NCBI GenBank assembly: GCA_024278755.1
Contig: JAJRSO010000035.1
Location: 1-64,000 of the forward strand
Reading direction: 5' to 3'
Origin: Calditrichota bacterium
GTDB taxonomy: Bacteria; Calditrichota; Calditrichia; Calditrichales; Calditrichaceae
Length of the DNA stretch: 64,000 nucleotides
Shown here in pieces: positions 46,120 to 60,815 of this stretch; the stretch's first letter is position 1, and every line of letters begins with the position of its first letter. Made by a program: the position numbers and the translations under genes. Below the pieces are notes generated by a model. It was not told where the DNA came from and did no database searches. It saw only the letters and a program-made list of their open reading frames with translations.

Positions 46120-47103
46120 TTATTCTCCTCTGAAATAACGCATAAACTGAACACGCTCATAAACGGCCGGGTCTTCCGACTTGCTTTGACTCATCTTGCC
46201 TCTAAAATCATTGAGGGAAGCAAAATTATGACGATCCATCCAGCTTTCCAATTCCTCCAGCAGGTTCTGTAAATAGGATTTATTGTTTTTATACAAGGTC
46301 GATACAACCTGAACCGAACTAGCGCCGGCAAGCAGTTGTTTAATCACGGCGGCCGCATCATGAACGCCTGTGGATGCGGATAAGTCACATTTAACCCGTT
46401 CGGACATAATGGCAATCCAGCGCAGCGAAATGGATAATTCTTCCGATTTGCTTAAAACGTGCGTAGAAGTCAACTGAAAATTCTCAATGTCAAAATCAGG
46501 GCTCCAGAAACGATTGAATAAAACCAGACCGTCGACACCGGTTTCGGACAGGTTTTGAATAAAAGGACCCAGATTAGACGAATAGTGGCTGATTTTCAGA
46601 GCAACCGGAATGGTGACCCGTTCTTTAACCTTGTTGGCCAGATCAAAATAAATCTGCTCATTTTCTTCGGCGGTTTTATGAAAATTCGTCGGCAGGGCAA
46701 ACACATTCAGTTCCAGGGCGTCGGCGCCGGCCGCTTCAAATTTCTGTGCATAGTAAAGCCATTCATGCGCAGACACACAATTGATGCTGGCAATCACCGG
46801 AATGGATACCGCCGCTTTGGCCTTTTCAATCAGTTTGATGTATGCGCTAAGATTTTTCTCTTTGATTTTGTAATCGTAGTAATCAAAGGCCGACGCATCA
46901 AAACCCTCTTTTTCTGCGCCTTTTACTTCATGTTCCATTTCATGCAGAATTTCTTCTTCGAAAATGGATTTAAGCACAACGGCGCCTGCGCCGAATTTTT
47001 CCAGTTCTTTAATATCTTCTACAGAATCGGTTAATCCGGAACTGCCCACAATAATGGGATTACGCAGGTCCAGTCCTAAATATTTGGTTGCCAGATTTGC
47101 CAT
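46120..47103 (-). CDS. Dihydroorotate-dehydrogenase-like FMN protein
   Basis: The protein has 327 residues with a TIM-barrel FMN fold of the DHODH/PreA type. It starts LATKYLGLDLRNPIIVGSSGLT, with SIPVIASINCVSAHEWL, GADALELNVFALPTN, VALKISHYSSNLG and SASTGVHDAAAVIKQLLAGA. The active-site segment does not match a canonical class 1 enzyme closely, so true dihydroorotate oxidation is not proven. It is 108 bases after the ferredoxin/GltD-like gene with a good ribosome site (AAAGGAAG). PreA-PreT enzymes pair a similar FMN protein with a GltD-like protein, so a functional link is plausible. Confidence 0.8.
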   Translation of the reverse strand: MANLATKYLGLDLRNPIIVGSSGLTDSVEDIKELEKFGAGAVVLKSIFEEEILHEMEHEVKGAEKEGFDASAFDYYDYKIKEKNLSAYIKLIEKAKAAVSIPVIASINCVSAHEWLYYAQKFEAAGADALELNVFALPTNFHKTAEENEQIYFDLANKVKERVTIPVALKISHYSSNLGPFIQNLSETGVDGLVLFNRFWSPDFDIENFQLTSTHVLSKSEELSISLRWIAIMSERVKCDLSASTGVHDAAAVIKQLLAGASSVQVVSTLYKNNKSYLQNLLEELESWMDRHNFASLNDFRGKMSQSKSEDPAVYERVQFMRYFRGE

Positions 47104-47211: not shown

Positions 47212-48984
47212 TTACTCATCCAGTAAAAAATGCGTAATGCCTTCTACCGCTTTAACACCGTCGGCAATGGCGCTGATGGCATCCGCCGTACGGTTCACAC
47301 TGTCGCCACCCGCAAAAATATCCGGAATTGAGGTTTGCTTCAGTTCATTTACAACCATACGGCCGCGCTCGATTTTCAATTCATCCATAACGTCTTTCGG
47401 CAGGAAGGAGTAATCCGCTTCCTGTCCGATAGCGCCGATAACCGTATCCACTTCCAAAATATGCTCGTCGCCTTCAATCAAAACCGGACGCGGACGGCCG
47501 CCTTTATCATCGGCAACCATTTCGGCCATACCATATTTAATGGATTTTACCTTGCCATTATTCCCGATCACTTCCAGCGGAATGCCTTGCGGGACGATAT
47601 GAACGCCTTCATCCTCGGCGCCTTCGATTTCTTCCCAGTCGGCCGGCATATCCTGAACGCGGCGGCGATAGAGAATGGTCACTTCCGCCCCGAGACGGCG
47701 GGAAACACGAGCCGCGTCAATAGCCACATTACCGCCACCGATAACAACCACCTTTTTACCCACATCCACGCTTTTACCCAAATTCACGTCACGCAGAAAA
47801 TCAACGGCCTGAATGGAATTTTCCAACTCTTCGCCGGTTAAGCCCAGTGTGTACGGAATATGAAACCCTATACCGATAAATACGGCGTCGTTTTCTTTAC
47901 GAATGGTTTCAAATGAAATGTCTTTTCCCACGCGGGTATTGTTCACCATCTTCACGCCAACTTTTTCCATATAACCAATCTGTTTATCCAGACTGTCTTC
48001 CGGAAAACGGTACTTGGGAATACCGGCGTAGGTCATACCGCCCATTTTGGGCAAGGCTTCGTAAATAGTTACCTCAAAACCGCGCAGCGCCAGATAATAT
48101 CCGGCAGAGAGCCCTGCCGGACCGCCGCCGACAATCCCTACTTTTTTACCATTCGGTTCGGCAATGACCGGATTTAAGATGGCTGCCGGATCCGGGAATT
48201 GTTCGGTGGCAAATCGTTTTAACCAGCGAATGGCAATCGGTTCGCCGAGATGACCGATGGCACAAACGGTTTCGCACTGACGGGTACACACTTTACCGCA
48301 CATTTCCGGAAGCGGATTATTATCATAAATATATTTTAAGGCTTTGGCGTCATCGGCGTCGGCAATGGCGCCAATATATTCGGGAATATGCATATGATCC
48401 GGGCAGGCGGTGACGCAAAGCGCACAGTCCACACAGCGGGTGGCTTCGGCGCGAGCTTCTTCCTGCATATAGCCCAGCACCACTTCGGCAAAGGATTTCA
48501 CCCGTTCCGCGCCGTCCAACTCCCGCATCGGAACACGGTCAAATTGCAGCAGCGGTTCGCTGTCGCTTTTAACAAAACTGATATGCTCTTTCATTTCGGG
48601 ATTGTCTTTCCCCGGAATAAGCAGATAGGAATCGGGATCGGGCGACGTATGCAGATATTGATCGGTTAAACTGAGCGAACCGGTCGGGCACATGTCCACA
48701 CATAATCCACACCAACAGCAGCGTCCGTTGTCCACGCGCGGGCGCAAACCGGAATCGCCCTTGGCCGCTTCGATTCCGTCTAACTGAATCATATCAATCG
48801 CGTCGTTCTGGCAAATGGTACTACAGGTGCCGCAGCCGATACATTCTTCCAAATCATTGAAATGGAATCCACGGTAACGCTGGGCCGTATCTTTTTTCTC
48901 GATCGGGTAACGTACCGTATGTGGTTTTTTACCTAAAAACTTTAATGCGGAAAAAGGAACCAGAGCGCCTTTTATGTTCATCAT
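47212..48984 (-). CDS. NuoI/MbxN-like ferredoxin fused to GltD/NfnB-type flavoprotein
   Basis: The protein has 590 residues. Residues 1-125 look like the NuoI/MbhN/MbxN subunit: HTVRYPIEKKDTAQRYRGF followed by two 4Fe-4S motifs, Cys48-51-54-58 and Cys89-92-95-99. Residues 180-590 look like the small subunit of glutamate synthase: a further CxxCxxCxxxCP (Cys184-187-190-194) and MCGKVCTRQCETVC (Cys229-233-237-241). An FAD site (VGIVGGGPAGLSAGYYLALRG) and NAD(P) site (VVVIGGGNVAIDAARVSRR) follow. The first ATG pair follows AGGCAAG. It would connect NAD(P)H, through flavin and clusters, with the membrane complex encoded upstream. I know of no standard complex with this fusion. Confidence 0.88.
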   Translation of the reverse strand: MMNIKGALVPFSALKFLGKKPHTVRYPIEKKDTAQRYRGFHFNDLEECIGCGTCSTICQNDAIDMIQLDGIEAAKGDSGLRPRVDNGRCCWCGLCVDMCPTGSLSLTDQYLHTSPDPDSYLLIPGKDNPEMKEHISFVKSDSEPLLQFDRVPMRELDGAERVKSFAEVVLGYMQEEARAEATRCVDCALCVTACPDHMHIPEYIGAIADADDAKALKYIYDNNPLPEMCGKVCTRQCETVCAIGHLGEPIAIRWLKRFATEQFPDPAAILNPVIAEPNGKKVGIVGGGPAGLSAGYYLALRGFEVTIYEALPKMGGMTYAGIPKYRFPEDSLDKQIGYMEKVGVKMVNNTRVGKDISFETIRKENDAVFIGIGFHIPYTLGLTGEELENSIQAVDFLRDVNLGKSVDVGKKVVVIGGGNVAIDAARVSRRLGAEVTILYRRRVQDMPADWEEIEGAEDEGVHIVPQGIPLEVIGNNGKVKSIKYGMAEMVADDKGGRPRPVLIEGDEHILEVDTVIGAIGQEADYSFLPKDVMDELKIERGRMVVNELKQTSIPDIFAGGDSVNRTADAISAIADGVKAVEGITHFLLDE

Positions 48985-49204: not shown

Positions 49205-50320
49205 CTACCGTTCGATCTCCGGCGGACAGGTACCGAGACTGTTCATTATAAAACTTACATCTGCGATATTCATCCCCTTAAGCATCTTTTCCAGCAGGGT
49301 TACGCCGTGCACATATGCGGGCCCGCGGACGTGAACGCGTCGCGGTTTCAGGCTGCCGTCGCTTACCACGTAGTAACCAAATTCACCGCGGGCAGACTCG
49401 GTACGCACATAGGCCTCGCCGGCAGGCACTTTCCATTTAAGCGGATTGGGACCCGGATTGTGAACGGGGCCCTCGGGCATTTTATCCAGCACCTGACGTA
49501 CAATGGATATGGATTGTTCAAATTCTTTCCGTCTTACCATCGCCCGGGAATAGACGTCGCTGCCTTCGTGAGTGATGACTTCCCAATCCAGTTTGTCATA
49601 CACCTCATATGGTTCGTCTTTCCGCACGTCGCGGGCAATGCCGCATCCGCGCAACGGAGGACCGACAACGCCCCACTCTTCGGCCTTTTCTTTGTCGATG
49701 ATGCCAACGCCCTGCGCACGTTTCAGAAAAACGGCATTTTCAAACAGCAGACGGTCGTAATCGGTTAAACGCTCTTCGAGATAATCCAGCACTTTGCGAA
49801 CTCGGTCTTTAAATCCATCCGGCAGGTCACGGCGCACGCCGCCGGCCCAGATGTACATGTGATAGACACGACCGCCTGTCAGTTCTTCAAATAGATCGAT
49901 GATGTAATCACGATCGCCCACCGTCCACTGCGGCATGGTGTACAAACCGGCAGAACCGGACTGTCCACCCATCCATAATAAATAGGTCGCCATCCGCGAT
50001 AATTCCAGCACCATAGTGCGAATATATTGTGCCCGTTCCGGTACTTCCCTGCCTTCGATTTCCTCGATGGCACGAGCCAGATTTTCTTCATTGGGATCGG
50101 GTTCCGGCACACAGATTCGGCAGACAATGGGAAAGCACTGCATCCAAAGCCGTTCTTCCATCAGCTTTTCAAAGCCCCGGTGCAGATAGCCTACATGGGT
50201 AGTTCCTCTTTGTACCGTATCGCCGGTAACCTTCAGCTCAATCATCATATTTCCGGTAATACCGGGATGCTGCGGACCGAGATATAGAGTTGTTTCTTTT
50301 TCTTGCATTATTTCTGACAT
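49205..50320 (-). CDS. NuoD/hydrogenase-large-subunit-like protein with CxxE motifs (Mbx type)
   Basis: The protein has 371 residues, homologous to complex I 49-kDa subunits and group 4 NiFe hydrogenase large subunits (LGPQHPG near the N-terminus; GGQSGSAGLYTMPQW; RTESARGEFGYYVVSDG). In hydrogenases two CxxC pairs bind NiFe. Here the first region reads RIC-VP-E (Cys70, Glu73) and the last GTC-PP-E (Cys365, Glu368), so each keeps the first Cys and has Glu in place of the second. The complex I quinone-site His (HPxxHG) is also missing (HPGITG). It is therefore neither a standard hydrogenase nor a quinone reductase; the catalytic site resembles Mbx/Mbs types at best. Confidence 0.9.
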   Translation of the reverse strand: MSEIMQEKETTLYLGPQHPGITGNMMIELKVTGDTVQRGTTHVGYLHRGFEKLMEERLWMQCFPIVCRICVPEPDPNEENLARAIEEIEGREVPERAQYIRTMVLELSRMATYLLWMGGQSGSAGLYTMPQWTVGDRDYIIDLFEELTGGRVYHMYIWAGGVRRDLPDGFKDRVRKVLDYLEERLTDYDRLLFENAVFLKRAQGVGIIDKEKAEEWGVVGPPLRGCGIARDVRKDEPYEVYDKLDWEVITHEGSDVYSRAMVRRKEFEQSISIVRQVLDKMPEGPVHNPGPNPLKWKVPAGEAYVRTESARGEFGYYVVSDGSLKPRRVHVRGPAYVHGVTLLEKMLKGMNIADVSFIMNSLGTCPPEIER

Positions 50321-50481: not shown

Positions 50482-51051
50482 TCATTTACTATCCTTAAAG
50501 TGTGGTACTTCCGTATCGTATTGTTTGGCAATGGTCTCCCGGACATCCTGTTTATCTTCGCGACCTTTACGCCATTCATAGGTTTTATCGACAAATTCGC
50601 GGGTATGAAAGTCCCGGCGCATGGGCGGCATATCTTCCCAGTCTTCCAGAATAAAATCACGCATTCCCGGATGGCCTTCAAAATCGACGCCGTTCATTTC
50701 ATGGATTTCCCGTTCGTAGGTTTCGGCCTGATCCCATAATTTGGAGATGGACTGCATCACAGGTTTTTCCCGTTCCAAACGCACTTTTACCATAATATGC
50801 ACCTTTTGCCGGTAGGACCAAAGATGGTAGACAATCTCAAATTAATTATCTTCTAACCAGTCCACACAGCTCATCATGACCAGATGCTTAAAATCCAGAT
50901 ATTCTTTTAAATAGCTGACAAAAGCCGGCAAAATACCACTGCGGAATTCAACAATAATCCGTCCCTGCCGTTGGATTTTTACCTTGGCCGAACGGAAAGC
51001 GTTGTTAATACTTTGTCTTATTTCTTCTTCGATAATAAATTTGTCGCTCAT
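50482..51051 (-). pseudogene. NuoC/MbxK-like subunit interrupted by one in-frame TAA
   Basis: Two frames, 50842-51051 and 50482-50802, are in the same reading frame. Between them, after MMSCVDWLEDN, a TAA (50844-50842) precedes FEIVYHLWSYRQKVHIMVKV, which is standard NuoC sequence (usually EFE-VYHL). One base change, GAA to TAA, explains it. The second half contains ETYEREIHEMNGVDFEGHP and the RDF motif, as in NuoC. Without the stop the product would be 189 residues, right for the subunit. Causes may be a sequencing error, a real nonsense mutation, readthrough, or restart at GTG 50802. Confidence 0.85.
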
Positions 51052-51154: not shown

Positions 51155-51697
51155 TTACCAGTTATAATCCGGCATTTTCCAGTTTGTAATTACTTTTTTC
51201 TGATTGGCGCGATAGGTATCCAGATTTTCTTTATATTTAACCCAACCCTGCGCGGTTCCGGCATCAATTAGTTTTTGCAGTTCAATAAATCCGTCAATGA
51301 CCGCTTCCGGACGCGGCATGCATCCGTTAATAAAAATATCCACCGGCAAATAATCATCCAGACGTTTAATGGTATTGTATGAGTCCCAGTACATTCCTCC
51401 GTTAATGGTACAGGAGCCAAAGCCCATAACATATTTGGGCGACTGCATCTGTTCGTAGGTCCGGATAACCCGTTTTAGGGTTTTTACGGCCAGATAGCCC
51501 GTAATCAACAGCACATCGGCCTGGCGCGGCGTGGCGCTTCCGGTAATTCCAAACCGTTCGGCATCGTAACGGGACGTCATGGTCGGCGGAATTTCAATAG
51601 CCCCACAACCGGTTCCATAGGCCAATACCCAAAGTGAATGCTTTCGCGCCCATTTGGAAATAATATTTCCCGCTTCTTTTCCCCAGTCTTCTTTCAT
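51155..51697 (-). CDS. NuoB/MbxJ-like 4Fe-4S subunit
   Basis: The protein has 180 residues. It is the small subunit that carries the cluster nearest to the catalytic site. Typical features are TPRQADVLLITG, GFGSCTINGGMYW and VDIFINGCMPRPEAVIDG. Cluster ligands seen are Cys31 (GTGCGAIE), Cys96 and Cys126. Complex I has two adjacent Cys in the first motif (CCAIE) and group 4 hydrogenases have CxxC, whereas this protein has only one there, so the fourth ligand is missing or unusual. It lies between nuoC- and nuoH-like genes in the Mbx order. Confidence 0.92.
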   Translation of the reverse strand: MKEDWGKEAGNIISKWARKHSLWVLAYGTGCGAIEIPPTMTSRYDAERFGITGSATPRQADVLLITGYLAVKTLKRVIRTYEQMQSPKYVMGFGSCTINGGMYWDSYNTIKRLDDYLPVDIFINGCMPRPEAVIDGFIELQKLIDAGTAQGWVKYKENLDTYRANQKKVITNWKMPDYNW

Positions 51698-51789: not shown

Positions 51790-52692
51790 TTACAATAACA
51801 CCAACAGAAAGCCCGCCAGTCCAATCGCGGTCGGCCATTTCCAGAAAAAAGTCATAGCCTGTTCGGTACGAAAACGCGGATTTACAATCCCCACAAAAAG
51901 CGGGATCAGATAAAAGGCAAATGTTTTAACCAGCAGAATGGCAAAATTGGTTGCGCCACCGAGAAACAGATCCACATAAAGCACCAGCTTCACAAAAGCA
52001 AACATACCGCGATTTGTCTGCATCAGGGCCAGATATTTCCCGCCAAATTCCGAAGGCGGACCGGAGGCGATTTCTGCTGGGGCAAACGGCACGTCAAAGG
52101 GTTTATTGCCCATCATTCCCAGAAAGGCGAACATAGCCGCAACAAAAGCAAACGGCGACTGGAAGATATTCCAGTGCATAAAACTGTCCTGCGCCGCGAT
52201 AATGTTCTGGACGGAGGTGGTTTCGTTTTGCACCATTAAGGTAACCAGCGCGATAACAAATGGAATCTCATAACCGAACATTTGTGTTAAACCACGGCTG
52301 ACACCGATAGCGGAGTTTGGATTCCCAGATTGTCCGGCGCCCAGCGCCATGGCGAGACAGCCAAACACCATAATGTATAAAATGAGAATTAGATCGCCCT
52401 GAAAGCTGAATAATGAAATGGCGTTCTCTCCCACCAGGACGGGAACAAACATCAGGGTCGAAATCGTTCCGGTAATGGCAATATTCGGCGCCAGATGAAA
52501 CATAACGCCATGCGTAATAGCCGAACGTTTCGAATACAGTTTGATCACATCCACCACATTCTGAAAAATAGGCGGGCCATAACGGTGCTGTACCCGGGCA
52601 ATTATTTTTCGTCCGATACCCATATAGGTAAGCCCAACTAACGACCCGATGAAGGGCATAACGATTATCCAGATGATGCTTAATATATCCAT
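51790..52692 (-). CDS. NuoH/MbxM-like membrane subunit
   Basis: The protein has 300 residues and about eight membrane helices. It anchors the peripheral arm to the membrane arm. The typical RVQHRYGPP loop near residues 33-41 (complex I: R-x-GPN type), the acidic cytoplasmic loop with FDVPFAPAEIASGPPSEFGG, and charged residues inside helices are visible. Hydrogenase and Mbx versions have the same RYGPP form. It lies directly between nuoB-like and mrpD'-like genes. Confidence 0.92.
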   Translation of the reverse strand: MDILSIIWIIVMPFIGSLVGLTYMGIGRKIIARVQHRYGPPIFQNVVDVIKLYSKRSAITHGVMFHLAPNIAITGTISTLMFVPVLVGENAISLFSFQGDLILILYIMVFGCLAMALGAGQSGNPNSAIGVSRGLTQMFGYEIPFVIALVTLMVQNETTSVQNIIAAQDSFMHWNIFQSPFAFVAAMFAFLGMMGNKPFDVPFAPAEIASGPPSEFGGKYLALMQTNRGMFAFVKLVLYVDLFLGGATNFAILLVKTFAFYLIPLFVGIVNPRFRTEQAMTFFWKWPTAIGLAGFLLVLL

Positions 52693-52894: not shown

Positions 52895-54751
52895 TTATAC
52901 CAGAAAATCCTTCACTAAAAATAAAAAGGCCAATGCAATTACCACAAACAGCGCATAGGTTTGTCCGTTTCCGGTGTACACATAGCGCATCACATCGAAA
53001 AGGCCTTCCAGATTATCGGCCAGGCTTGCGTATATTTTACTGACGCTGCGTTTCAAGAAGATACTAACGCCGCGGGCAAAAGGCTGGTAAAAATCAACCG
53101 CATAGTGCAAATTAATTTCTTCTCCGGGAACCTCACCGCTGGTATGAATATCTTTTAAACCGACTTTACGCGAACGTTTATACAGGGTATTAAACAGGAT
53201 AAACACAATAAAAAATACTACGGCTACGATATTCATAACCGTTATTGTGCTTACATTTCCGTAACTGTTAAACAACATGGAATGGCTTAAATCAAAAGGC
53301 GCTATCCCCATATACACCTGAGCCTGGTTAATTAAATCCAATAATTGATAGGGATAAAAACCAAGATAAACCGTTAACAACGCTAAAATTAGCATGGGGG
53401 CGCGCATCATCCAGGGCACTTCTTTAACCTCGTCAAACCGTTTGGGACGTTGCCCCAGAAAGATGGTAAAAATAATCCGGTACAAGTACAGGAAGGCAGC
53501 AGTGCTGGCCCCAAAAGCGACCACGGCAAGAAAAATCAGGTGTTTTTCAATCAGAGCTTCGTATATCAGCCATTTACCGGTAAATCCTGATAAAGGCGGC
53601 ATACCGGCAACGGTGATAATACCAAGCAGCACTACGAAAAACGTATAGGGCATCCGTGTAATCAGGCCGCCCATTTCGCTCAGCTTCCGCGTACCGGTTC
53701 TGTAAAAAACGGCGCCAACGGCTAAAAAGAGCATGCCCTTAAAAATAGAATGGTTTACGGCCTGATAGAGTCCGGCGGTTACGCCCATGGACGACGAAAG
53801 AGAGAAACCTAAGATAATATACCCCAACTGCCCGATAGAGGAATAGGCCAGCAATTTTTTCGCATCATCCTGCACAATGGCTTTAAACGTGGCAAGTAAT
53901 GCGGTAATAGCGCCAAACCAGGCTAAAATATATCCCGGCAGAGAAACCCCCTGGATAGTTATTACACTGGAGGCTAATTTACCTGCGCCAAAGACGAAGA
54001 AGAGCAAAGCTAAACCATAAATACCCATTTTGGATAAGGCGCCGGAAAACAACGCCGTAAACGGAGCCGGCGAAATTGTATAGGCGTCGGGCGCCCAGGT
54101 ATGTAAGGGCATCATGGCCGCTTTAACGGCAAAACCAATCACAAACAACACAAACAACCAAATCTGTAAAGTAAGGCTGAAGCCACTCCAACCCGCAGAA
54201 AGGACATCAAACAAAAAGCTTCCCAATTGTGCATAGACGATTAAAAGCGCCGTTAACATAGCATAGGCGCCAATCATACTCATCACAAAATACCGGAGTC
54301 CGGCCGCCTGCGCTTCATAACGGTAATAAATAACCATTAAAAAAGAAGACCAGGTCATTATTTCCCAAAAGAAAAAGAAGGAGAGCAAATCGCCGCTAAC
54401 CACGATTCCGAACATACTGGCTACCGTTATACACATAGCAAAGCAGTAAAAATCAACCCGTTCTTTACCTTTCATATAAGAGCCGGAAAAGATGGCTGTT
54501 AAAATCGCCAAACCAAAGATAATCATTCCAAATAGCCAGGACAGGGGATTGATACGCCAAATAATATCAAACCCAAGCATTTTAAATGTAAAACTGCTCA
54601 GCGTGCCCTGCAATCCGAGAAACAGCCAGCCGGCCCAAATCAGGCCGACAATGGAGACGCCTACCTTAAGGATATAATTGAATTTTCCCACAAGGTATGC
54701 TAATACTGCGGCGCCAAATAAAATGCTTAAAATAAAAGGAATCGTTTCCAT
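52895..54751 (-). CDS. MrpD/NuoL-like antiporter subunit, long form (MbxH' type)
   Basis: The protein has 618 residues. It belongs to the NuoL/M/N-MrpA/D proton-pumping family, with 14-16 helices. Conserved features are WEIMTWSSFLMV (Glu in helix 5), MPLHTWAPDAYTISPAPFTALFSG and LLAYSSIGQLGYIILG. About 100 residues beyond the usual MrpD length give a soluble or amphipathic segment and one extra helix at the C-terminus, as in MbxH'. It would form the second ion-translocating module of the complex. Confidence 0.9.
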   Translation of the reverse strand: METIPFILSILFGAAVLAYLVGKFNYILKVGVSIVGLIWAGWLFLGLQGTLSSFTFKMLGFDIIWRINPLSWLFGMIIFGLAILTAIFSGSYMKGKERVDFYCFAMCITVASMFGIVVSGDLLSFFFFWEIMTWSSFLMVIYYRYEAQAAGLRYFVMSMIGAYAMLTALLIVYAQLGSFLFDVLSAGWSGFSLTLQIWLFVLFVIGFAVKAAMMPLHTWAPDAYTISPAPFTALFSGALSKMGIYGLALLFFVFGAGKLASSVITIQGVSLPGYILAWFGAITALLATFKAIVQDDAKKLLAYSSIGQLGYIILGFSLSSSMGVTAGLYQAVNHSIFKGMLFLAVGAVFYRTGTRKLSEMGGLITRMPYTFFVVLLGIITVAGMPPLSGFTGKWLIYEALIEKHLIFLAVVAFGASTAAFLYLYRIIFTIFLGQRPKRFDEVKEVPWMMRAPMLILALLTVYLGFYPYQLLDLINQAQVYMGIAPFDLSHSMLFNSYGNVSTITVMNIVAVVFFIVFILFNTLYKRSRKVGLKDIHTSGEVPGEEINLHYAVDFYQPFARGVSIFLKRSVSKIYASLADNLEGLFDVMRYVYTGNGQTYALFVVIALAFLFLVKDFLV

Positions 54752-54859: not shown

Positions 54860-56332
54860 TTATAAACCAGCCGATAAAACTGCTTTTATATAAATTGATT
54901 TATCTATTAATTCCGCTGCCGCCGGTTTTAAATAGGTCATTACCAGGTCGGGATACAAACCGGTCACCAGGGTAATCAGCGCCAAAATAGACATAGCCAC
55001 CAGCGCAGATTTAGGAACATATTGAACCTTTGCGCCATCGTGCGGGGCCTTAAAATAAAGCCTTCCGACCACACGCAAATAATACACTGCTTCGATGATA
55101 CTGCCAAACAGAGCCAGGGTCGCAACAGCGATAAATCCATGGCTAATGGTTTCCGATAAAATAATAAACTTCGACCAGAACCCACTCAGAGGCGGCAAGC
55201 CCAAAATGGCAAACGCGCCAAAGGCAAAAAAGAAACTGAGCAGCGGTTTAACCCGGCCCATTCCGTCCATATCTTCTATGTTTTTACTACCGGAATAGAA
55301 TACAAGATAACCGGCAGAAAGGAAAAGCAGGGGTTTAATCATGGCATGGTTAAACATCTGAAACAGGCCGCCTTCCACACCCCGAGTTGTCGCCAGCCCG
55401 AGCGCGATAAGCACCAATCCCATTTGCCCAATGGACGAAAAGGCCAGCATTCGTTTGAGCTGTTTTTGACGAATGGCCGACATTTCGGCTATTAATAGCG
55501 TTATGATTCCGGCAATGAGAATAAAATGGAAAATGCCCTGAAAACTAAAGATGGTATAAATTAAACGCGCTAAGGCATATACTCCGGCCTTGACCACGAT
55601 ACCGCCAAAGGCCGCGCCGATTGGTGTTGGCGCCTGCGAATATGCATCGGGCGCCCAGCCGTTTAGAGGGAACATTTCCGCTTCGATTCCAAATCCGGTT
55701 ATTAAAAGGATTAAGGCCATAATCGCAATACGCGGATCTACATCTTTTAAACGAACGGCAATTTGCGCCATATTTAGCGTTCCGGTTGTGGCATAAATCA
55801 GGGCAATCCCCAAAAGAATAAATGTAGAGGCCATGCTTCCGATAAGCAGATATTTAAAGGCTGCTTCCGCACCGTCCCGGTCGCGCAGAAAGGCGGTTAA
55901 AGCATAGGATGAAATACTGGTAATTTCCAGAAAAACAAACAGATTAAAAATATCCCCGGTAAGTACCATTCCGGTGGCGCCTGCCGTAAGCAGTAAAAAG
56001 AGCATATGGTATTTTTCATTGGGCTCTTCTTCCACAAAACGGATATTGTAAACGGCAACCACAAAACCAACGAGAGAAATAATCAAAGCCAGTACATTTC
56101 CCAACGGGCCAATGGTCAAATTGATTCCCAGAGGCGGCGCCCAGGCGGCAATAATCACAATAACCGGTTTCACCATCGAATGCGGCAACAGCATAACCGT
56201 TTCGTACAAGTTAAAACCAATTATCAGAACTGGAACATATTTAACCAGGCCTTTGGAAATACGCGCCAGCGGTGGTATTAAAAAAGCCGCGAACAGGGGT
56301 AAGGCAATCATTAATACAGGGTCAAGATACAT
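54860..56332 (-). CDS. MrpD-like antiporter subunit (MbxH type)
   Basis: The protein has 490 residues, the normal MrpD/MnhD length. Conserved residues are in LFVFLEITSISSYALTAFL, PLNGWAPDAYSQAPTPIGA, GGIVVKAGVYALARLI and MLAFSSIGQMGLVLIALG. It carries proton or sodium channels in the membrane arm. Two MrpD copies next to each other are typical of Mbx, whereas Mbh has one; this supports the Mbx-like assignment. Confidence 0.92.
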   Translation of the reverse strand: MYLDPVLMIALPLFAAFLIPPLARISKGLVKYVPVLIIGFNLYETVMLLPHSMVKPVIVIIAAWAPPLGINLTIGPLGNVLALIISLVGFVVAVYNIRFVEEEPNEKYHMLFLLLTAGATGMVLTGDIFNLFVFLEITSISSYALTAFLRDRDGAEAAFKYLLIGSMASTFILLGIALIYATTGTLNMAQIAVRLKDVDPRIAIMALILLITGFGIEAEMFPLNGWAPDAYSQAPTPIGAAFGGIVVKAGVYALARLIYTIFSFQGIFHFILIAGIITLLIAEMSAIRQKQLKRMLAFSSIGQMGLVLIALGLATTRGVEGGLFQMFNHAMIKPLLFLSAGYLVFYSGSKNIEDMDGMGRVKPLLSFFFAFGAFAILGLPPLSGFWSKFIILSETISHGFIAVATLALFGSIIEAVYYLRVVGRLYFKAPHDGAKVQYVPKSALVAMSILALITLVTGLYPDLVMTYLKPAAAELIDKSIYIKAVLSAGL

Positions 56333-56448: not shown

Positions 56449-56790
56449 CTACCATTTTAATTCCCGGATTTTGTTGATGTTTAATGTTTTATGGTGGTCA
56501 TAAATTCGAATTACAATGGATAGTGCCAAAGCCGTTACAGCCACACCAATTACAATAGCGGTAAGCACCAGAGCCTGTGGCACCGGATCCACCATATCGC
56601 CGGCAGTCAGGGTCGGATTAGAAAATATTGGCGCTGTCTTGTCCTTAACATAGCCCAGAGAAACGAGTAATATATTCACACCACTATCGATAAGCGTCAA
56701 ACCTAAAACAATTTTAATCATATTCTTTTTTACCAGTACCGCGTAGATACCGATTAAAATCAAACTAATTGCCGCAACATAGTAAATCAT
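56449..56790 (-). CDS. MrpC/NuoK-like subunit (MbxG type)
   Basis: The protein has 113 residues and three membrane helices. Typical NuoK/MrpC sequence includes IGIYAVLVKKNMIKIVLGLTLIDSG in two parts and VDPVPQALVLTAIVIGVAVTALAL, with the buried Glu/Asp partly replaced. It helps to form the ion path next to MrpD. Confidence 0.93.
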   Translation of the reverse strand: MIYYVAAISLILIGIYAVLVKKNMIKIVLGLTLIDSGVNILLVSLGYVKDKTAPIFSNPTLTAGDMVDPVPQALVLTAIVIGVAVTALALSIVIRIYDHHKTLNINKIRELKW

Positions 56791-56898: not shown

Positions 56899-57585
56899 TT
56901 ATTTAACCGTCTGTAACATGGTATCCAGCAGGGCTGTAAGCTCGGCGCCTACCTTAAAACCCACGGCCACATAAATCAACGGAATCACGCCTGCGCTAAA
57001 CAGTGTATTTGCCGTGCCGAGCGGTAAAATGTTGGCCAGAAAACTGGAACCGTATGCCAATCCGAGTAAACCGATAATTACAAACACCGAGCCTGCCGAC
57101 GATTCTACTCTTGATAAGATAACATGGTTTACATGATAAGTTCGGTAAGACATAAACATCAGTAAAAAGCCGGATGCAATTATGGCGCCGCCCTGAAATC
57201 CGCCGCCGGGCGTCAGATGGCCGTGAATAAATACATAAGCGCCCAGAATAATAATAAGCGGAAAAAGAATCCGCGCTCCGGTTTTAACAATGACACTGGC
57301 ATTCTGACGCGCCCGTTCGGTGGGCCGTTTACTATATAATAAGGCGCCCATTCCGGTAGCGGCCAAAAACAAAACAGTCACTTCGCCCAGGGTGTCAAAT
57401 CCCCTGTAATTCACAACAATGGAGGTCACTAAATTCGCTGCCCCGGTTTGCTGCAATCCGTCCTGTAAGTATTTTAAACCGACCCCTTCCAACACTCTTA
57501 CCACACCAAAGGGAACCAGTAAAAACGTGGAAAGCAGATAATATCCTATAAATCCTAAAAATAACACGGCTATTGCTTTTCTCAT
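56899..57585 (-). CDS. MrpB-like subunit with MbhE-like N-terminus (MbhE-MbhF fusion)
   Basis: The protein has 228 residues. Residues 1-90 resemble MbhE (ANLVTSIVVNYRGFDTLGEVTVLFLAATG), and the rest MrpB/MbhF (AYVFIHGHLTPGGGFQGGAIIASGFLLMFM in two parts). In Mbh complexes these are separate genes. Its ATG overlaps the stop of the MbhD-like gene by four bases (translational coupling). It is part of the Mrp module that links ion transport to the redox arm. Confidence 0.88.
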   Translation of the reverse strand: MRKAIAVLFLGFIGYYLLSTFLLVPFGVVRVLEGVGLKYLQDGLQQTGAANLVTSIVVNYRGFDTLGEVTVLFLAATGMGALLYSKRPTERARQNASVIVKTGARILFPLIIILGAYVFIHGHLTPGGGFQGGAIIASGFLLMFMSYRTYHVNHVILSRVESSAGSVFVIIGLLGLAYGSSFLANILPLGTANTLFSAGVIPLIYVAVGFKVGAELTALLDTMLQTVK

Positions 57586-57821
57586 TCTTCCATTCTCCCG
57601 GTTCTGCGGATGGTAATCATAAAAATAATTGTAGAAAGACCGACGCCAATTGCGGCTTCGGTTAGGGCTACATCCGGCGCTTGCAATAAATAAAAATAAA
57701 TGGACGCAATCAGACTGACAACCGAACCGGAAATCACCGCGGCAACCAAATCTTTACTGCGAACCGTATTAAGAGCGCCGGCAATTAAAATAACGGTTAA
57801 TATGATAAGTAAAATATCCAT
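57582..57821 (-). CDS. MbhD/MrpB'-like subunit (DUF4040)
   Basis: The protein has 79 residues with about three short helices. The family segment SLIASIYFYLLQAPDVALTEAAIGVGLST in two parts contains the conserved APDVALTEAA. It corresponds to the last part of MrpA in multi-subunit Na+/H+ antiporters. Stop and start codons overlap both neighbours. Confidence 0.9.
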   Translation of the reverse strand: MDILLIILTVILIAGALNTVRSKDLVAAVISGSVVSLIASIYFYLLQAPDVALTEAAIGVGLSTIIFMITIRRTGRMEE

Positions 57822-58177
57822 CAGGCCGCCTCTTCTTTTTCTTCTGATTCCTGTACTGCTTTTTTATAGGCGTCGATATCCTTTTTCTGCCACATCTTAA
57901 TGCCAATACGATAACTTCCCCGGGCCAAAGCATGCGAACTGATAGGATTGGAAAGTAAAATAAACAACGAAATAATCAGTGTTTTTAAAAACCATTCCGG
58001 ATTTATCAGGCCAACTCCCATAATGGTGCCGACAGCACCAAGGGTGGTCGCCTTAGTACCGGCCTGCATCCGGTTATATACATCCGGCATACGTAAAATA
58101 CCCAGAGCGCCTAACAAAAGAAACAGAACGCCAAAACTTGTTAACACATATCCCGTATAATGCAAAGCGTCCAGCAT
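57821..58177 (-). CDS. MrpG-like subunit
   Basis: The protein has 118 residues with three helices. The MrpG motif GILRMPDVYNRMQAGTKATTLG is complete. A charged C-terminal tail (KKDIDAYKKAVQESEEKEE) extends into the cytoplasm. Start and stop overlap the neighbours by one base. Confidence 0.93.
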   Translation of the reverse strand: MLDALHYTGYVLTSFGVLFLLLGALGILRMPDVYNRMQAGTKATTLGAVGTIMGVGLINPEWFLKTLIISLFILLSNPISSHALARGSYRIGIKMWQKKDIDAYKKAVQESEEKEEAA

Positions 58178-58425
58178 TAAAGCCCCCCTTCCAGATAACG
58201 GGCAATAGTCAGTACCCCGACAAACCCCAGCACACCGTAAATAAGGGCAACGTCAATATAGATATAACGATGAAAAAACAGACCGAGCAGTACCAGCAGC
58301 GCTGTAGAAATAGTAGTCAGCGTATCCAGCGCGACAACGCGATCAGAAGTGGTAGGCCCCAGAATAAAGCGCACGGCTGCTAAAACAAGAGCCAAACCGA
58401 TAACGCCGAAAAATATATAAATCAT
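58177..58425 (-). CDS. MrpF-like subunit
   Basis: The protein has 82 residues and three helices, with the MrpF features RFILGPTTSDRVVALDTLTT and IYIDVALIYGVLGFVG. The ATG overlaps the MrpE stop by four bases. Confidence 0.93.
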   Translation of the reverse strand: MIYIFFGVIGLALVLAAVRFILGPTTSDRVVALDTLTTISTALLVLLGLFFHRYIYIDVALIYGVLGFVGVLTIARYLEGGL

Positions 58426-58910
58426 TCAAAAATCTCCTTAATGTATTTTTCGAACACAGCAGAGATTTCCCCAAACGTTTCCTGGGGATTTGTTGTGGTA
58501 ACATTTATCCAGTGAATGTAGAGTTTGTCTTCAATGACGTCTACCGTCAATGTGCCCGGCGTTAAGGTGATGGAATTGGCCAGCGCCAGTTTGGCAATAT
58601 TGGATTTAAGCTTGGTGGGCACTTCTACAATACCCGGGTCAATAGGCATTTTCGGACTAAGTACGCGTTTTGCCACATCCATATTGGCCTTAATCATTTC
58701 CCAAACAAACACAAACAGATAGCGGACTGTAAATACAATTTTCCGAAAAGACAGATTACTTAAACCACCTTCTGAAAATTGTTTTCCGGTATAGAACGCC
58801 ATAATAAATGCTACAACCGCACCGACTATCAACTCGTCGGTTTGCAGCGAGGTAGTAAAGGCTACCCAAAAAATAAAAAACACTAAAAAACTGTAAATAT
58901 ACCTGGACAT
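58422..58910 (-). CDS. MrpE-like subunit, first gene of the Mrp/Mbx-like operon
   Basis: The protein has 162 residues from the ATG at 58910 (MSRYIYSFLVFFIFWVAFTT). The frame extends to an ATG at 58967 but the extra part is charged and does not fit the family. MrpE features are TDELIVGAVVAFIMAFY, VFVWEMIKANMDVAKRVL, ANSITLTPGTLTVDV and YIHWINVTT. This is the first gene, so the operon promoter should lie in the AT-rich region after 58911. Confidence 0.9.
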   Translation of the reverse strand: MSRYIYSFLVFFIFWVAFTTSLQTDELIVGAVVAFIMAFYTGKQFSEGGLSNLSFRKIVFTVRYLFVFVWEMIKANMDVAKRVLSPKMPIDPGIVEVPTKLKSNIAKLALANSITLTPGTLTVDVIEDKLYIHWINVTTTNPQETFGEISAVFEKYIKEIFE

Positions 58911-59410
58911 CGTTTTTCCCGTTTCTTGTAATATCCTGCGCCATTTTGCAACAATTGTGCCGGACATTAAACACGATACAACTCCTTAATATTAAAGAAA
59001 TTAGTACTTGCATATTTTTAAATTCTAAATTTTAGATTCTAAATTTGTGAATTGTATCTTATTGTTTTTCTTTAAAATGGGGTGTTTTTTATATTTAAGA
59101 AATATAAACAGAATTATCATCAATAGGCAGCAGATATAAGCATATTTAATGGATTTTTTAATTATTTTTATGAAAACGGCTAAATATTGATAGATATCCG
59201 AGGGCATGTCCTAAATATTTCATCTATAAACCGCAGAATAAATCCCATAAATTGCAATAAATCGCAAAACTATTTTCATTTTTAGTAATTGTATGAATTA
59301 TTCAGCAGAGAAGAAAACGAATAGAATAATAAAACACCTTTATAAAACGAAATTCGAACCGTTTGGATAAGCAAGATAAAATACAAAATAATTTGCAGGC
59401 CATGTTCATT
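58911..59410. other. AT-rich gene-free stretch upstream of the Mrp/Mbx-like operon
   Basis: No coding frame is supported in these 500 bases. It should contain the promoter of the 14-gene cluster on the minus strand; no clear -35/-10 pair or operator could be picked out by eye. Confidence 0.5.
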
Positions 59411-59507: not shown

Positions 59508-60815
59508 TTATCCCAAATCCTGCCAGTTCATCTGCACCAGCGACCGGATGATTTTTTCTCCGCGGTGTCCGTAAATGGGATTATCCTGCAAAGACAGTTC
59601 ATCGGCCAGACGCACGGCCACATCAACGGGAGATTGATTGTTTTGCTGTGCGTCATTTAAAACTTTCAGCGTCGTGCGAAAAATCGAATGTTCCCATTCG
59701 CGATCCAGGTGACGGGTAAAAAAGGGATCGTTGTCGATATAACCGGATTGTTCGTCGGCGCAATTGACAATGCCCATGCGGTTAGTAAGGAAATCCGGTA
59801 CAAAAGTTACGCCCGTTTCCATAAGCGCTTTGCCATCCCGCTGCGCGTTTTCCAACTGGTTGTTGGCCGCACCACAGATAATTTTAGCTTTAATATTTGG
59901 TATGGTCTGGGGATTCAATACAGCTCCGGTCGCGCAGGGCGCCACAATATCGCACGCTTCAAACAGAATGGAAGCATCGTCGGTGTTCACCGTCCGCGCT
60001 TCGAGGTTACGGTCAGCAAATTTGTTTTTCACCTGCTCTACCAATCTGGCGTCGATATCCGCTGCAATAATTTTCTTTACATTTTTTTCAAACAAAAAAC
60101 CAATTAACGGTTCGGCCACGTGTCCCATTCCCTGCACGGCTACGATCTTCCCTTTTAGCGTTCCCATTTTCAGGAAATTCAGAGCCGCTTCCATTCCGGA
60201 AACAACGCCTAACGCGGTGGGCGCCGAGGGGTTTCCGCTGCCACCCAATTGTTCCGGAATGCAGGTGGTAAAACGGGTTTGCGAAAAAATATGGGCCATA
60301 TCTTCCACACTGGTGCCCACATCTTCGGCCGTTACATAACAGCCACGGATGGAAGTCATTAATTTACCAAAATCCGTATACACGGTTTCCCGCAATTGGG
60401 GATCCATTTTGTCATATTTAGGATTATGGGCCATCACCGCTTTACCGCCGCCCCACCACAATCCTGCCAACGCATTTTTACGAGTCATTCCTTTGGCCAA
60501 ACGCAGGCCGTCCCGAAGATAATCTTCCATAGAATCATATTGCCAAAAACGCACCCCGCCGGCCGCCTGTCCGCGATTGGTACGGTGGACAAATGCCCCC
60601 TGCAAAACATCATACGCGCTGCTGATTTGGAAAAAAGCGCCCTCGTGTTCCATAAAATCACGTTTGTCATTTTGTATAAAATCGGCCAGCTCCTGCAAAG
60701 CGGGATGCGAAGGTTTTACGGTTTTTGTTTCTTTTTCATATACAAAATAGAAACGGTTAATTTTTTCATTTTTTAAAAACTGTAGAAATTCCTGCGGATT
60801 CATTTTGAGTAACAT
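59508..60815 (-). CDS. Glu/Leu/Phe/Val-family dehydrogenase
   Basis: The protein has 435 residues, longer than leucine dehydrogenases (about 365). The N-terminal domain has GGVRFWQYDSMEDYLRDGLR, LAKGMTRKNALAGLWWGGGKAV with two catalytic Lys, and YVTAEDVGTSVEDM. The NAD(P) domain has VAVQGMGHVAEPLIGFL and AADIDARLVEQ. The GGGKAV form points to leucine/phenylalanine-type amino acid dehydrogenases that reversibly deaminate branched-chain or aromatic amino acids. A GGAAGAG ribosome site precedes the ATG. It seems to be a single gene. Confidence 0.9.
   Translation of the reverse strand: MLLKMNPQEFLQFLKNEKINRFYFVYEKETKTVKPSHPALQELADFIQNDKRDFMEHEGAFFQISSAYDVLQGAFVHRTNRGQAAGGVRFWQYDSMEDYLRDGLRLAKGMTRKNALAGLWWGGGKAVMAHNPKYDKMDPQLRETVYTDFGKLMTSIRGCYVTAEDVGTSVEDMAHIFSQTRFTTCIPEQLGGSGNPSAPTALGVVSGMEAALNFLKMGTLKGKIVAVQGMGHVAEPLIGFLFEKNVKKIIAADIDARLVEQVKNKFADRNLEARTVNTDDASILFEACDIVAPCATGAVLNPQTIPNIKAKIICGAANNQLENAQRDGKALMETGVTFVPDFLTNRMGIVNCADEQSGYIDNDPFFTRHLDREWEHSIFRTTLKVLNDAQQNNQSPVDVAVRLADELSLQDNPIYGHRGEKIIRSLVQMNWQDLG

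Follow-up and report, generated by a model that had tools for sequence, protein, structure and literature searches.

A predicted relative of MBS/MBX-type sulfane sulfur reductases in Calditrichota carries a fused NAD(P)H oxidoreductase-like module

In [NiFe] hydrogenases the first cysteine of each CxxC motif of the large subunit is a terminal nickel ligand, and the C-terminal tail of this subunit is cleaved off on maturation. The membrane-bound sulfane sulfur reductase (MBS) of Pyrococcus furiosus (formerly MBX, PDB 6U8Y) lacks two of the four NiFe cysteines, and the two that remain, C85 and C385 of MbsL, lie near the proximal cluster (Yu et al. 2020, PMC7684303). This [4Fe-4S] cluster has only three cysteine ligands, C28, C93 and C123 of MbsJ; oxidative removal of its unique iron cost ~98% of the activity, which iron brought back, and Fe-S clusters are the only ones described for the complex (PMC7684303). 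An MbsL variant with both cysteines replaced (C85A/C385A) was about as active as the wild type, and so was MbsJ C25A; the assays of the published mutants used a cytoplasmic subcomplex and a model substrate (PMC7684303). A bacterial 13-subunit homolog, the MBX of Thermotoga maritima, is described as ferredoxin-fed, and its mbxA gene is induced by sulfur (PMC9431562). In Desulfurococcaceae (Thermosphaera, Staphylothermus), operons of an MBX-type complex include a separate SudA/NfnL-type gene, sudA, that is NADPH-linked (PMC3035292, PMC2678158).

Here, we analyze a 64,000-nucleotide stretch of DNA (hereafter the window) from a Calditrichota bacterium (GCA_024278755.1, contig JAJRSO010000035.1, positions 1–64,000, forward strand), in which a first-pass annotation had pointed to an unusual hydrogenase-like large subunit. 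Judged from its sequence, the encoded complex is a relative of the MBS/MBX-type sulfane sulfur reductases, a known group of membrane enzymes with kinship to respiratory complex I, of which the Cys/Glu pattern of the large subunit is the usual signature. The less usual point of this complex and its relatives is a built-in module predicted to oxidize NAD(P)H.

The operon reads, in transcription order, MrpE, F, G, MbhD-like, B, C, two antiporter-like subunits, M, J, K, L and N, running from 58967 to 47212 on the minus strand (Table 1). Comparison with related operons revealed a complete membrane arm of Mrp subunits, H, H' and the M anchor in conserved order. The Mrp gene complement and order are those of P. 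furiosus MBS, and the P. furiosus mbx gene order agrees with that of the window for the genes tabulated in PMC2678158. Directly downstream lies a dihydroorotate dehydrogenase-like gene (46120–47103, minus strand, PRK07565), and a gene of this type keeps its position in Calditrichota, Ignavibacteria and some Bacteroidales. Upstream on the same strand is a Glu/Leu/Phe/Val dehydrogenase-like gene (59508–60815), through which amino acids could serve as a source of NAD(P)H.

Table 1. Features of the MBS-type operon, with coordinates in the window.
Feature	Position	Strand	Evidence
MbsL/MbxL-type large subunit (NuoD/49 kDa family), 371 aa, tailless	49205..50320	-	6u8y_L best PDB match, E 3e-109; motif table; tree
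L N-terminal site Cys70-Val-Pro-Glu73 (CVPE)	50102..50113	-	translation, column alignment
L C-terminal site Cys365-Pro-Pro-Glu368 (CPPE)	49217..49228	-	translation, column alignment
MbsJ-type small subunit (NuoB family)	51155..51697	-	6u8y_J, E 3e-67; motif table
MbsK-type subunit (NuoC/30 kDa family), in-frame TAA inside	50482..51051	-	Complex1_30kDa
MbsM-type membrane anchor (NuoH family)	51790..52692	-	operon comparison
Antiporter-like subunit, H' type	52895..54751	-	Proton_antipo_M, PRK08668, gene order
Antiporter-like subunit, H / MrpD type	54860..56332	-	gene order
MrpC / NuoK-type subunit	56449..56790	-	Oxidored_q2
MrpB-type subunit	56899..57585	-	
MbhD-type subunit	57582..57821	-	MbhD PF13244
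MrpG-type subunit	57821..58177	-	PF03334
MrpF-type subunit	58177..58425	-	PF04066
MrpE-type subunit	58422..58967	-	
N fusion: MbsN/NuoI-type two-[4Fe-4S] domain + NfnL/GltD-type flavoprotein	47212..48984	-	6u8y_N, 5jca_L (NfnI), PRK13984

Several lines of evidence place L with MBS. Among PDB chains, P. furiosus MbsL scored better than complex I (2e-74) or MBH (1e-41), and L shares 49% identity with MbsL over 360 residues, as opposed to 39% with the genome's own NuoD. A phylogenetic tree separates MbsL and all window-type L proteins, as a single clade (99/99), from complex I and group-4 hydrogenases; MbsL sits on a long branch, so that its exact place within the clade is tentative. A structural search with the L model using VIA-align was uninformative either way, returning complex I chains at tied Z scores of ~44–45, with 6u8y not among the best 50 matches listed.

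We aligned L column by column with group-4 [NiFe] hydrogenases (L124–L126) and complex I NuoD, all from the same phylum, its hydrogenases standing in for P. furiosus MbhL. Where the hydrogenases read RICGICSI and DPCYSCTER or DPCYSCAER, and NuoD reads RMDYLASM or RMNYLSPL and DIVLGEIDR or NIIAGELDR, L reads RICVPEPD and GTCPPEIER. C70 and C365 (RIC70VPE73 and GTC365PPE368 in the translated reading frame) thus occupy the first cysteine of each hydrogenase CxxC and E73 and E368 the second, bridging one, as the first-pass annotation had described. It had also noted the loss of the complex I quinone histidine; the alignment bears this out, with Thr22 in its place and Val71 in that of the quinone tyrosine. 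The symmetry of the change, from which selection had been argued, is weaker than it looks: complex I also has an acidic residue at position 368, which leaves only the N-terminal replacement of Cys by Glu as peculiar to this family. L shares with NuoD/Nqo4 the fold and this acid, and differs in lacking the quinone His/Tyr pair and in retaining two cysteines.

Group-4 hydrogenases such as MBH and FHL share the fold and the two terminal cysteine positions with L, which has neither bridging cysteine nor a C-terminal tail. The protein stops three residues past E368 (...CPPEIER), as does each of the 77 orthologs whose end is intact, whereas group-4 hydrogenases of the phylum run on for about 50 residues past the second motif. 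A NiFe site in L was ruled out on these two absences. The genome encodes HypC as well as two normal [NiFe] hydrogenases whose CxxC motifs are intact; loss of the NiFe site is thus a property of the L protein and not of the cell, and missing Hyp maturation is unusable as an argument against a NiFe site. An AlphaFold model of L (mean pLDDT 86) falls below 50 at residues 71–74 and 366–371 and so gives no geometry for the site.

The four residues align with C85, E88, C385 and D388 of MbsL, in a computed numbering that reproduces the published C85 and C385. The Cys/Glu site is therefore not a new kind of site but one already published for MBS, in which two NiFe cysteines are absent and two kept. 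A scan of 84,980 species genomes for L orthologs yielded 80 loci, mostly in Calditrichota, Ignavibacteria, Bacteroidales, Acidobacteriota, Spirochaetes, Campylobacterota and Chromatiaceae. All 76 bacterial L proteins that span both sites, the window's included, carry C/E and C/E, and only the adjoining residues vary; in P. furiosus the fourth residue is Asp and the other three are identical. The conservation that the first-pass annotation had made a test of its reading was thus found, and the lack of variation at these positions in bacteria of several phyla agrees with its preference for selection over decay. Such invariance argues against decay and free variation; alone it is modest evidence for a special role, since 98 of 371 L columns do not vary across 74 complete ortholog rows, and P. 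furiosus matches 73 of these columns.

A single-contig genome from the window's family (G001, 4,978,541 bases) has the operon with the same residues and the same N protein architecture. A second, more distant type of complex also occurs in Calditrichota (L095, at G001 C1:896000-915500, and L109–L114), with L identity of about 56–60%. Its N protein has the same fused architecture and its L the same four residues. Five more distant Calditrichota L proteins beyond the 76 agree at these positions, and a sixth, cut at its N-terminus, agrees too.

The small subunit J keeps the three cysteine ligands of the catalytic proximal cluster of MBS, in the shortened J loop typical of that group. Window J contains exactly three cysteines, Cys31, Cys96 and Cys126, corresponding to C28, C93 and C123 of MbsJ, and these ligands never vary among the bacterial J proteins that we compared. 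At the position of MbsJ C25, window J and all bacterial J proteins compared have Gly; as the C25A mutant is active, evolution appears to have dropped a dispensable residue. J reads TGCG, with one cysteine in contrast to the tandem cysteines of complex I NuoB. P. furiosus MBS thus has the nearest L and J, similar CxxE and Cxx(D/E) sites and the same three-cysteine proximal cluster, and differs at these subunits in the Asp for Glu368 and the Cys for Gly.

A larger difference concerns N. Residues about 1–125 form an MbsN/NuoI-type domain with two [4Fe-4S] clusters (6u8y_N matches 8–123), and residues about 145–590 an NfnL/GltD-type FAD and NAD(P)H oxidoreductase (5jca_L, NfnI, matches 144–588) comprising a Fer4_20 domain with its own cluster motifs and FAD and NAD(P)H dinucleotide folds. 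MbsN (208 aa) is devoid of this flavoprotein domain. PRK13984 covers N residues 3–588 (E 2e-198, below the model's cut-off, which was passed in one of 14 control genomes), and this end-to-end match indicates that the fusion architecture exists in curated models. Proteins of about 600 aa with this fusion are encoded at 39 loci (Calditrichota, Ignavibacteria, Bacteroidales, Acidobacteriota and a few others), and 17 of 17 cysteines are invariant among 40 fused N proteins. Chromatiaceae, Campylobacterota and Spirochaetes instead have a short, unfused N (about 130–160 aa in most), and at two Chromatium loci (L069, L072) no N subunit was found beside L. We found no description of the fusion in these bacteria in open-licence literature, a search result of little weight. 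Compared by description, the sudA operons of Desulfurococcaceae resemble the window in pairing an MBX-type complex with a SudA/NfnL-type protein, there encoded by a separate gene and here part of a single polypeptide with N. The fusion together with this precedent suggests NAD(P)H as the electron partner of the window complex, so that its donor may differ from the reduced ferredoxin of MBS. T. maritima MBX, likened to the window complex by description, differs in its ferredoxin supply.

From the observed family, motif positions, operon and cofactor motifs, we infer substrate, donor, direction and coupling as follows. The N-fused flavoprotein would take up electrons, with NAD(P)H their most likely source, and pass them through the [4Fe-4S] clusters of the N chain to the proximal [4Fe-4S] cluster of J. 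Polysulfide would be reduced at the proximal-cluster iron that has no cysteine ligand, in a chamber between L, J and M, and the Mrp-type membrane arm would couple the reaction to ion movement. The Cys/Glu residues of L would be the leftover of a former NiFe pocket, near the chamber and neither catalytic nor a NiFe site. We regard this model as probably correct. It also accommodates the sulfur-type substrate that the first-pass annotation had offered as an example, which membership in the MBS/MBX group makes plausible. Counting against it are the reading of the donor from a domain fusion only, the strict invariance of two L cysteines that are nonetheless dispensable in the P. furiosus subcomplex, which leaves their conservation unexplained, and the condition of the K gene discussed below.

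The first-pass annotation had raised the idea that Cys70, Glu73, Cys365 and Glu368 bind another metal and form the catalytic site. Two cysteines with two carboxylates are a possible metal site in general chemistry, and the four residues are invariant and stand at the hydrogenase NiFe-ligand positions; such invariance is little telling among these orthologs, the C-terminal acid recurs in complex I with no metal there, and the activity of the C85A/C385A mutant, the catalysis at the J proximal cluster and the description of Fe-S clusters only (PMC7684303) make a catalytic metal here very improbable. Fold and much sequence in common with NuoD could instead suggest that L, its NiFe site lost, reduces quinone as part of a ferredoxin- or NADPH-fed complex I variant, in line with the Caldithrix abyssi genome paper, where a second ndh locus that lacks NuoEFG was interpreted as proton-transporting with non-NADH donors (PMC5317091). 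The replacement of both quinone residues and the single J cysteine in place of the tandem pair speak against this, and we give it hardly any credence.

The same complex might also run in reverse, with an ion gradient driving sulfide or polysulfide oxidation to reduce ferredoxin or NAD(P)+. NADPH and polysulfide lie close to each other in redox potential, and relatives with a short N occur in sulfur-oxidizing Chromatiaceae and Campylobacterota, in which the reaction may run the other way; the Riftia symbiont co-expresses an Mrp-Mbx complex and the reductive TCA cycle (PMC11636981). The direction may thus differ between lineages, but the members that have been characterized or tested for expression (P. 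furiosus MBS, T. maritima MBX) are all tied to sulfur reduction and the window lineage has no known sulfide oxidation, and reversal here seems unlikely. A different concern is that the operon of this genome is decaying. In this assembly the K gene has an in-frame TAA at 50842–50844, a real nonsense codon or an assembly error, where the nearest relative (L004) has Glu; if real, this copy is possibly nonfunctional. K is uninterrupted in L004, which is 97% identical in L, in L005 and in other orthologs, all other subunits of the window operon are open with intact cofactor residues, and a single-base assembly error would give the same picture. We consider decay rather doubtful.

Polysulfide reduction at the J cluster with NAD(P)H as donor, the model that we favor, allows a bolder and more tentative extension, which we think possible but would not presume. 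In Calditrichota, Ignavibacteria, Bacteroidales and some Acidobacteriota, the complex would conserve energy as an NAD(P)H:polysulfide oxidoreductase, a full MBS to which an NfnL-type entry module is covalently joined, so that ion-coupled sulfur chemistry is driven by NAD(P)H in place of ferredoxin, or else yields NAD(P)H. The invariant Cys/Glu residues of L would then have a part in coupling or in the handling of protons or persulfide, one that the P. furiosus subcomplex assay could not reveal. The comparison with P. furiosus raises a clear contrast between the invariance of the L cysteines and their dispensability in vitro.

What appeared to be a new metal centre falls into a known series, with C,C/C,C in hydrogenases, C,E/C,D or E in MBS, and an acid at the last position only in complex I. 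Complexes of the MBS type that keep every catalytic residue are found in many bacteria that are not hyperthermophiles, and a large part of them carry the fused NAD(P)H module. At least one genome of this kind, probably that of C. abyssi, was reported to contain a second NADH dehydrogenase locus left unexplained; the second ndh locus of C. abyssi is without NuoEFG (PMC5317091). This organism reduces sulfur, which slightly stimulates its fermentative growth, and the genome paper credits other enzymes (PMC5317091); a complex of the predicted MBS type could account for this effect of sulfur on Caldithrix fermentation.
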